DNA of 64,000 nucleotides. It comes from Methanosphaera sp. BMS. GTDB lineage: Archaea; Methanobacteriota; Methanobacteria; Methanobacteriales; Methanobacteriaceae. The notes beneath the pieces were generated by a model. That model was not told the origin of the DNA, did not search any database, and saw nothing but the letters and a program-made list of their open reading frames with translations. The position numbers and the translations under genes are program-made. The stretch is taken from the NCBI RefSeq assembly GCF_003268005.1, contig NZ_CP014213.1:248001-312000 (forward strand), written 5' to 3'. How positions within the stretch are numbered: the stretch's first letter is position 1; every line of letters starts with the position of its first letter. Of the stretch, positions 9,720 through 38,538 are shown in pieces.

Positions 9720-9892
9720 CATACTATTTCTAATCTATTAAATTAGGAAGGATTTGATCATTTATTGGATTGATTATTCAAACGACATTTTTCTTTAAAA
9801 ATAAAAAAGAAAAATAAGAAAGTATGCTCTCTAATTAAAATAGAAGAGGCAATGAAAAATTTATTTAAACTATAATCTTCCATATATTGATA

Positions 9893-10029
9893 ATTACTCT
9901 ATTTTTAACGCGTATTTAACGATGTAAGTAGGTACTTGCACTCGAAAAACTATATATTCTTTCTAAACTAATAGTATAAGTAGGTGAGAAGAAGTATCCC
10001 ACTAATAAAAAAAAATAAAAATAAAAAAG
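9893..10029 (+). ncRNA. Conserved leader or small RNA, copy 1
   Basis: This block is almost identical to 36905-37037; by eye I count three substitutions and one single-base indel over about 125 nt. The AT-rich promoter element AAAATTTATTTAAAC (ends 9870) is also conserved, with the same 22-nt spacing, so the conserved block begins where transcription should start. Predicted hairpins are GTAAGT-AGGT-ACTTGC (9924-9939) and a second near 9976-10006 ending in a CCCACT motif, followed by an A-rich tract. Here the block is followed by a secreted-protein gene at 10055, so it could be its 5' leader; the other copy has no gene behind it. Confidence 0.6.
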
Positions 10030-10054
10030 TATATGAATAGAAGAGATGATAAAA

Positions 10055-10549
10055 ATGAAAAAATTAAATCTAAAAAATATATTGATTATGGCATTAGCCT
10101 TAATGGCAGTAACCTGCACAGTAGCAGCAGTAAGTGCTGATGACGTAAGTGCCGCTACAAACACTGTTCAAAGCGGAACATTAACCCTAAATGATATACA
10201 ATTCAAAATACCAAACGGATTCACAGCAGTCGAAAGCGATCAAGACAACTCAGAAGCTGGTGATGCAGAACACATGGATGGAACACAAGTAGACACCGAA
10301 GTATCACAAGATTACATAAGTACAAATGGTGAAAAACTTGATATACAAGTAGGAAGCAGAGCAAACTCCAAAATAGATACATTAAACCTTCCAAATGCAC
10401 AGAAAAAAACCATTGCAGGAAAAGATGGATTCTTCTGGACAGAAATGGATGATGGTAAAACAGAATATAAATTCGAATACCTACAGGACGGTAAAATAGT
10501 TAAAATAGTAACCAACAATGAAGATGTGATAAACCAAGTATTAGCATAA
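10055..10549 (+). CDS. Small secreted protein with signal peptide
   Basis: The protein has about 164 residues. A basic start and hydrophobic core (ILIMALALMAVTCTVAAVSA) form a clear signal peptide, probably cut after VSA. The mature part is acidic and small, with IQFKIPNGFTAVES near its start and a C-terminal FEYLQDGKIVKIVTNNED. The IPNGF segment resembles IPEGYT in the secreted protein at 63057 and the xGLTFEV/GYKLEV strand of the anchored proteins at 29904 and 54614, so they may form one family. I chose the ATG at 10055 because AGATGAT lies four bases upstream; another ATG lies three codons earlier. Function is unknown. Its leader contains the duplicated RNA element. Confidence 0.75.
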   Translation: MKKLNLKNILIMALALMAVTCTVAAVSADDVSAATNTVQSGTLTLNDIQFKIPNGFTAVESDQDNSEAGDAEHMDGTQVDTEVSQDYISTNGEKLDIQVGSRANSKIDTLNLPNAQKKTIAGKDGFFWTEMDDGKTEYKFEYLQDGKIVKIVTNNEDVINQVLA

Positions 10550-36904: not shown

Positions 36905-37037
36905 ATTACTCTATTTTTAATCCGTATTTAACGATGTAAGTAGGTACTTGCACTCGAAAAACTATATATTCTTTCTAAACTAATAGTATAAGTAGGTGAG
37001 AGAAGTATCCCACTTATAAAAAAAAATAAAAAATAGA
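36905..37037 (+). ncRNA. Conserved leader or small RNA, copy 2
   Basis: This is nearly identical to 9893-10029, including the promoter element ending at 36882 and the 22-nt spacing. The first hairpin (GTAAGT-AGGT-ACTTGC) is unchanged. The second is better paired here (ATAAGT ... ACTTAT). No ORF follows in the next 380 bp, so this copy behaves as an independent small RNA or an orphaned leader. Both copies are on the plus strand 27 kb apart. Confidence 0.6.
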
Positions 37038-37329
37038 AAATAGTTATTGATTTATTTTCAGATCTGTTATTGGTCTTTTTAGCACATCAAATCATTAAAC
37101 CCTTACTTTTTAATTTCTTTCTTTTATGATTAATTATTTTTATATGATTTAATGTAAATGTTAAAATTATTGGATAAATTTTATTATTATCTAATGAATT
37201 AAATACTATGTTTGATATAACTATCATTATTCAAAAGATATTATTAAAATGGTGTTGTTCAAAATCTGGTTGAAAGATTTTGAAGTCACAATATTAGTCA
37301 AAACATTACATATAATACAAAAAAATGTA

Positions 37330-37437
37330 CAATTGATTATGTTTTGTTTATTCTTATGTGTTTCTTGCTTAAATAAAGGTTTCCCTTCATAGTAGCACAA
37401 GCTAGCCCCAGGAACCCCCCGGTTAAAAGTTTTCATT
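37330..37437 (-). ncRNA. Probable reRNA (omega RNA) scaffold of the TnpB element
   Basis: TnpB guide RNAs start within or just after the 3' end of tnpB and extend over the element end. Here the stop codon region is followed by a GC-rich structured stretch: a run of G, then TTCCTGGGGCTAGCTTGTGC with hairpin TAGC-TTGT-GCTA, enclosed by GGTT and AACC (about 37375-37420). The exact right end and hence guide start cannot be fixed without another copy. Confidence 0.45.
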
Positions 37438-38538
37438 ATATATTCTTAATCCTTCCTCTTTGATATTCAAGGCCGCATTATAATCCCTGTCATGTACGGT
37501 TTTACATTTAGGACAAGTCCAAGTTCTATCATTTAATGTCAACTCTTTATTTTCATAGTGACAATTATGACATAATTTTGAACTGGGATACCATGCATCT
37601 ATTCGGATTAATGTTCTACCATATCTATCTGCTTTGTATTGTAATTTGTTAAATAAGCTATTCCAACTTTTTGTTTGTATCTGTCTTGCAAGATTATGAT
37701 TTTTCATCATACCTTCAATGTTTAATGATTCAATTACAATTACTTGGTTTTCTCTAATTAATCTGGTGGATAATTTATCGTATTCATCATTTATTATATT
37801 ATGTATTCTTTTATATGTTTTACTTATTTTTATTTTGGTTTTTTTGTAGTTATTACTATCCTTTTTTTGTCTGGATAATTTCTTTTGTAAGAAAATGATA
37901 TGATTTTGTAGTTTTATAATCCGTGGCGACTGATTAAATACTGTATTATCACTCATAACAACAGTGTTCTTTATTCCCACATCTAATCCAATAACATTTT
38001 CACTGGCAGGTAACCTTTCTACAGTCACATCAGTATATACTACAGATACATAATAATTACCTGTATGTTCTCGTGTAATGGTTGCTGATAAAATCCTGCC
38101 TTCCGGATGTAGTTTATTTTTAGCTTTCACCCATCCAACTTTAGGTAAACGAATCTCATCCCCATAAAAACGAATAGTATTCCCATTATTGACACTAGTA
38201 TAACTTTTTTTATCATCTTTCTTACTCTTATAATGTGGAAATCCACCCCGTTTATCAAAAAACGCTTTGAAAGCTTCATCCAAATATTTAACTTCACGTT
38301 GCAACGCAGTAGAATCCACATCCCTAAGATAAGTATAATGAGTTTTATATTCCGATAAAACACGACAACACTCAACATAGCCATAATCAATACCCAACTG
38401 ATCATACATAAAGATACGACCATCCAAGAAATAATTCCAAACCTTACGACAACATCCAAAAGTCTGATTAATCAAAACTTCCTGACTATCAGAAGGATAC
38501 AAACGATAAACCACACCCATCATCAAAAAACAATCCAC
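37423..38538 (-). CDS. tnpB: TnpB (IS200/IS605 OrfB), RNA-guided nuclease, intact
   Basis: The protein has 371 residues. The RuvC catalytic triad is complete: D186 (GLDVGIKN), E270 (VIESLNIEGM) and D352 (HDRDYNAALNI). The zinc finger C323-x2-C326 ... C342-x2-C345 is intact. TnpB proteins are RNA-guided DNA endonucleases that keep the element at its site. No tnpA (Y1 transposase) is adjacent, so this is an IS1341-type element that needs help to move. Start is uncertain: a GTG at 38538 directly abuts GGGAG, and ATG codons five and six codons later are alternatives. A TATA box (ACATTTATATACTAG) lies about 60 bp upstream. Confidence 0.9.
   Translation of the reverse strand: MDCFLMMGVVYRLYPSDSQEVLINQTFGCCRKVWNYFLDGRIFMYDQLGIDYGYVECCRVLSEYKTHYTYLRDVDSTALQREVKYLDEAFKAFFDKRGGFPHYKSKKDDKKSYTSVNNGNTIRFYGDEIRLPKVGWVKAKNKLHPEGRILSATITREHTGNYYVSVVYTDVTVERLPASENVIGLDVGIKNTVVMSDNTVFNQSPRIIKLQNHIIFLQKKLSRQKKDSNNYKKTKIKISKTYKRIHNIINDEYDKLSTRLIRENQVIVIESLNIEGMMKNHNLARQIQTKSWNSLFNKLQYKADRYGRTLIRIDAWYPSSKLCHNCHYENKELTLNDRTWTCPKCKTVHDRDYNAALNIKEEGLRIYNENF

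Follow-up and report, generated by a model that had tools for sequence, protein, structure and literature searches.

A duplicated intergenic block in Methanosphaera sp. BMS as a probable regulated promoter module with a palindromic operator

In the Thermococcales, TrmBL1/Tgr serves many promoters from palindromic operators, activating from sites upstream of BRE/TATA and repressing from sites downstream (PMC4158304). The locus described here resembles that system in the placing of its operators and in the apparent use of one regulator for many promoters. It differs in that TrmBL1/Tgr belongs to the TrmB family, recognizes another motif and controls sugar metabolism, whereas here the candidate regulator is a TetR-family protein and the predicted targets are secreted proteins.

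SlmA of Escherichia coli and Vibrio cholerae, a TetR protein, is a proven activator of transcription (PMC5519180), which is a possible parallel. The SlmA site GTGAGTACTCAC (PMC3116907) resembles GTAAGTACTTAC found here, but its consensus was not matched, the consensus here being GTAAGT/GCAAGT-N4-ACTTAC/ACTTGC. The TetR fold is common to both proteins; the archaeal TetR had weak PDB sequence matches, and the relation to SlmA is distant. SlmA occupies chromosome-wide sites for nucleoid occlusion, mostly off promoters, whereas here the palindrome lies at a fixed distance from BRE/TATA. Bacillus FadR controls fatty-acid genes. It has the TetR repressor architecture, as would the candidate here, and FadR-type TetR proteins were among the best solved sequence relatives of the archaeal TetR (5gp9, E 6e-9; 3whb, E 1e-4), at a distant level of similarity.

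A TetR regulator with a palindromic operator and a regulon is thus a known kind of system. The regulator, motif and regulon presented here are apparently undescribed, as the first-pass annotation of this DNA had supposed for the element: no published description of any of them was found in the open-access literature.

The repeated block and its probable promoter module

The window, the 64-kb stretch of the Methanosphaera sp. BMS genome that was analyzed, contained a near-identical block at two sites, as first annotated. Alignment of 9893-10012 with 36905-37023 showed 97% identity over 120 nt (E 3e-51), and 96% over 136 nt; no further close copy was found in the 2.87-Mb genome. Compared in register, the copies were 100% identical at 9915-9989, and going upstream the identity fell to 91%, 74%, 61%, and 39%. 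The flanks had been called otherwise unrelated. This was so downstream, where the likeness ended after about 10035, but the 103 nt upstream of the block were 66% identical between the copies (shuffle maximum 53%). Because the identity fades gradually upstream and stops near 10035, the copies form a duplication with the core at its centre, either old or repeatedly homogenised, and do not represent an isolated insert. At genome position 1403097-1403167 there was a third module, more diverged than these two.

Comparison of different species showed that the stretch common to them was only about 43-70 nt and began just before the palindrome, not at 9893. Among 21 non-redundant Methanosphaera-type modules, the onset of conservation was about 9 nt before the palindrome. 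The order of the module was constant: palindrome, two bases and TCGAAAA, TATA box, about 25 nt, AAGTAG, leader hairpin, GGTGA, and ATG. This order indicates an archaeal BRE/TATA promoter fronted by an operator. The palindrome was 18 bp long with the consensus TGYAAGYNNNNRCTTRCA, and the BRE began one base after its end. It occurred in the forms GTAAGTAAGCACTTGC and in variants with both halves changed jointly (GTAAGC-GCTTGC, GTAAAT-GTTTGC, and GCAAGT-ACTTAC). The Methanobrevibacter counterpart of the A/T-rich element was TTTTAAGA. When loci were retrieved by the palindrome alone, each of the 18 had a BRE-like element and a TATA box at the same distance. Of 175 unique palindromes, a collection partly selected for BRE, 123 had the TATA box at exactly 10 bp. 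With BRE and TATA box at fixed spacing, transcription would start about 25 bp downstream. The probability that the repeated block is a regulated archaeal promoter with a built-in operator, most likely for a TetR-family regulator, was put at about 0.8. The features are listed in Table 1.

Table 1. Features of the two window copies, the copy 1 target and the candidate regulator (window positions unless marked as genome)
Feature	Position	Strand	Remarks
A/T-rich element ATTTAACGA, copy 1	9914..9922	+	columns -9 to -1 conserved in 21 non-redundant modules
Operator palindrome TGTAAGTAGGTACTTGCA, copy 1 ("hairpin 1" of the first-pass annotation)	9923..9940		halves co-vary between species
BRE (TCGAAAA) and TATA box (CTATATAT), copy 1	9942..9957	+	fixed distance from palindrome
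Inferred transcript start (~9978, AAGTAG) and 5' leader with hairpin (~9983-10003), copy 1	9977..10035	+	~25 bp after TATA; AAGTAG conserved; individual folds
167-aa secreted protein, copy 1 target	10046..10549	+	signal-peptide-like ORF; homologues behind module elsewhere
A/T-rich element, copy 2	36926..36934	+	identical to copy 1
Operator palindrome, copy 2	36935..36952		identical to copy 1
BRE and TATA box, copy 2	36954..36969	+	identical to copy 1
Inferred transcript start and leader hairpin, copy 2	36989..37040	+	no gene after
TetR-family regulator, 210 aa	genome 1403486-1404115	minus	PF00440 TetR_N, 43.2 bits (cut-off 24)

A search of 139 Methanobacteriaceae genomes found the operator and BRE pattern in 65 and its reversed control in none; the pattern was limited to 3 of 17 genera (g1, Methanosphaera; g4 and g10, Methanobrevibacter-type). 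Counted by the palindrome alone, the maximum was 66 in one genome, the complete genome G095 had 19, and controls had 0. The window's genome had four core palindromes, three in the modules and one 55 bp behind a TetR gene. From these genome comparisons, the predicted promoter module occurs throughout the gut methanogens Methanosphaera and Methanobrevibacter, where it precedes secreted-protein genes. Five modules of the Methanosphaera genome G007 were on contig C2 (174 kb; L099-L101), which may be a second replicon.

A separate repeat was seen at 2-668 of the window, where an ORF contains an 81-nt unit in five or more tandem copies (82-85% identity).

Activation or repression

In eight outgroup genomes the palindrome occurred exactly once each, at the start of the TetR gene itself, and wherever readable it lay between the TATA box and the ATG. 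A site downstream of the TATA box has the geometry of autorepression, so the ancestral role was probably autorepression. In Methanosphaera and Methanobrevibacter, the palindrome directly upstream of the BRE at many secreted-protein genes would correspond to the geometry of an archaeal activator. A TetR protein bound next to the BRE would activate transcription from AAGTAG, which lies about 25 bp past the TATA box. The transcript would open with a short leader carrying a 5' hairpin, and a Shine-Dalgarno sequence and the gene for a small secreted protein would follow. A self-controlling regulator would in this way have become the switch of a regulon of secreted proteins, probably as its activator.

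Activation is modestly favoured, because the operator is upstream of BRE/TATA, as are the activating sites of TrmBL1/Tgr, and the TetR-family SlmA also activates. Most TetR proteins are repressors, and the same promoter and operator could serve a TetR that blocks TFB when bound beside the BRE and is released by a ligand. The single base between palindrome and BRE and the autorepression geometry at the outgroup TetR gene agree with such repression. However, the sites at target genes never overlap the TATA box or the start site, and the palindrome-TATA distance is nearly constant, as contact with TFB/TBP would lead one to expect. In archaea, dual regulators activate from the upstream side (PMC4158304), and activation by a TetR protein is established for SlmA (PMC5519180). 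Repression of the regulon was therefore considered plausible but somewhat doubtful.

Predicted target genes and modules without a gene

Copy 1 is read as a complete module that would drive 10046-10549, in line with the first annotation, which had placed one copy before a secreted-protein gene. Homologues of the 10046 protein (43-77% identity) were found behind the same module in other species, and most targets of the Methanosphaera modules were such homologues. The protein had no Pfam match. Its AlphaFold model (mean pLDDT 75) gave weak PsbP/DcrB/Tsi3-like matches, none with E < 0.001, and a fold of this type is tentatively suggested.

An ORF started within 160 nt of the operator in 66 of 126 archaeal modules. 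By a simple hydrophobicity rule, used in place of a trained predictor, 58 of these 66 ORFs were signal-peptide-like, while among control ORFs from the same loci 70 of 286 were (p 6e-22). The target proteins fell into several families unrelated to one another (mean column identity 7%), and Pfam covers few of them. Other modules preceded a 61-residue zinc-ribbon protein and a further gene, tandem short peptides, or nothing recognisable. The zinc-ribbon protein and the second gene formed a conserved pair at L147, L158, L214, L216, and L232; the second gene of L214 was within a scanned set of which one member matches DUF2207_C. Tandem ORFs of 16-19 residues were found behind modules of Methanobrevibacter (L184, L188, L148, L143, L210, L246, L206, and L199), with a period of 84-101 nt and a Shine-Dalgarno sequence for each. 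The peptides included MAPTGCFSKLFRKIASLFN (six related copies in L184), MTFEEAVEEIWRYNGLI, and MGWTYRDACSNICSVIYIC, and are possibly signalling or antimicrobial.

The last third of the block is probably transcribed, as a leader that folds into a hairpin. The leader hairpin has statistical support, with a mean z of -1.22 over 142 modules against -0.68 for the promoter half; it was read from single folds, and sequence alignment of the leaders left the stems unaligned. It perhaps protects the 5' end. The leader hairpin of copy 2 (-6.3 kcal/mol) was stronger than that of copy 1 (-3.3).

Copy 2 had been annotated as having no gene after it, and indeed no ORF with a ribosome-binding site followed before 37400. 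On its sequence it is best called an orphan promoter without a gene. The gene behind module 3, as read from its sequence, looks like a frameshifted relic, and together with the orphan copy 2 this means that the species seems to be losing targets. A duplicated 10046 gene lost by deletion, with copy 2 as its stump, was also considered. This was rejected as no coding remnant was present downstream, although the gene may have been deleted completely.

Copy 2 possibly gives a short non-coding RNA. On that view it might have a function in the regulon through a transcript of about 80-150 nt that codes for no protein, instead of being an orphan of gene loss. Its promoter is intact with a 75-nt core identical to that of copy 1, it has the stronger leader hairpin, T-runs follow about 80-150 nt downstream of its predicted start, and other species have comparable ORF-less modules. 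Yet the sequence past the leader is unlike copy 1 and is not known to be conserved, the identity of the core could stem from recent conversion, and the decayed gene behind module 3 shows target loss in this species. A functional role of this kind is unlikely, and we retain the orphan promoter.

ORF-less modules with similar downstream sequence across species or copies, hairpins, and T-runs were seen at L172, L185, and L193; L141 and L240; L205 (five copies); L161 and L038; and L116 and L234. These downstream sequences are candidate small RNAs of the same regulon. A TnpB-type gene (IS605 OrfB, Cas12f1-like; 37423-38538, minus strand) has its end about 380 nt beyond copy 2, and a GC-rich tract (about 37395-37430) could mark where the TnpB-type element ends.

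The candidate regulator and the remaining alternatives

The 210-aa TetR gene lies directly upstream of module 3 and its product carries PF00440, the TetR_N helix-turn-helix domain, at the N-terminus. Two of the four core palindromes of the genome adjoin this gene. Among 42 distinct loci of the TetR subfamily, collected by protein search alone, 27 had the palindrome within about 235 nt of the gene ends (expected 0.007 per locus); beside unrelated TetR genes of the same genus the count was 0 of 21. Of the 139 genomes, 46 had both motif and TetR, 19 the motif only, 14 the TetR only, and 60 neither, giving an odds ratio of 10 (uncorrected for ancestry). Binding of the palindrome by this TetR subfamily is highly probable. 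Three Bacillaceae loci (L135, L179, and L231), retrieved by the DNA pattern alone, had the same palindrome 19 nt behind a homologous TetR gene and before an ABC-2-type membrane protein gene, and the predicted TetR-operator pair is thus also present in bacteria.

The same promoter module could be bound by a different regulator, with the TetR association secondary. Five Methanosphaera species with modules (G004, G006, G007, G015, and G018) had no member of the TetR subfamily above E 3e-12, and therefore another binder may act there; G007 is 99% complete in two contigs. G001, scored as TetR-less, had, at the end of a contig, a fragment of 69% identity, and 11 of 44 Methanobrevibacter motif genomes, many of them drafts, were without a clear TetR match. 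Against a different binder stand the contrast of 27/42 with 0/21, the single palindrome of each outgroup genome, always at this TetR gene, and the palindromes adjoining TetR homologues in the three Bacillaceae loci. A different binder throughout is improbable, and the TetR subfamily is kept as the candidate.

A TetR gene between two modules of G007 (L101:11131-11757) was rejected as a substitute. It had 20% identity and a different DNA-binding helix, and its own promoter carried another palindrome (L288). Other Methanosphaera TetR genes likewise had palindromes of their own ahead of the start codon (CTAACGAACGGTAGGTAG; TGACTATATAGTCA and variants; L288, L293, L297, and L302; L283, L285, and L291), so further TetR-operator pairs are directly readable.

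The first-pass annotation had read the block as a structured small RNA or mobile leader that began at a predicted transcript start, 9893, and was transcribed from a conserved upstream promoter. The element TTTATTTAAA is indeed present about 23 nt upstream of the block at both copies (copy 1, about 9860-9869). However, among the compared modules it is common to the two window copies only, and no TATA column was conserved at that position across 21 modules; it may be an additional promoter of the window copies. The proposed RNA hairpin (GTAAGT-AGGT-ACTTGC) is read here as the palindromic DNA operator upstream of the canonical BRE/TATA CGAAAAACTATATA, and would therefore be untranscribed under that promoter; only the leader hairpin lies downstream. 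Of the small-RNA proposal, the leader is what survives, the core being a probable DNA operator and promoter. Although both window copies have the upstream element at the same distance and the whole fold of copy 2 beat shuffles (z -2.23), the RNA reading is very improbable, given that cross-species conservation begins at the palindrome with BRE/TATA in its middle, that the fold of copy 1 was no better than shuffles (z -0.71), that Rfam gave no credible match at the gathering threshold on the window or at a loose threshold around copy 2, and that the ends of the duplication fade.

Nothing marks the block as mobile. An IS or MITE was rejected, the upstream fading being gradual instead of sharp and the modules keeping a fixed geometry to genes, with no gene-independent dispersal. 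Viral spread was also rejected: the single IMG/VR match was without BRE/TATA context and before a large ORF unlike the targets, and was taken as chance.

Little is known of how gut and rumen methanogens control the proteins that face their host or neighbours. With a precise DNA motif, a candidate regulator identified by name, and targets listed for each genome, the proposal is immediately testable, in organisms responsible for enteric methane. One site per outgroup genome compared with up to 66 in Methanobrevibacter would represent the growth of a regulon from a self-regulating gene, accompanied by a shift of the site from a repressing to an activating position. Our tentative and rather doubtful extension is that a TetR controlling only itself in an ancestor of the Methanobacteriales came, in gut and rumen methanogens, to activate as many as about 60 promoters. 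The regulon would then comprise secreted proteins, 16-19-residue peptides in tandem arrays, and short transcripts that are non-coding, copy 2 being one of these non-coding members. If this is true, the expanded regulon would be a possible surface, communication, or antagonism programme of these archaea.
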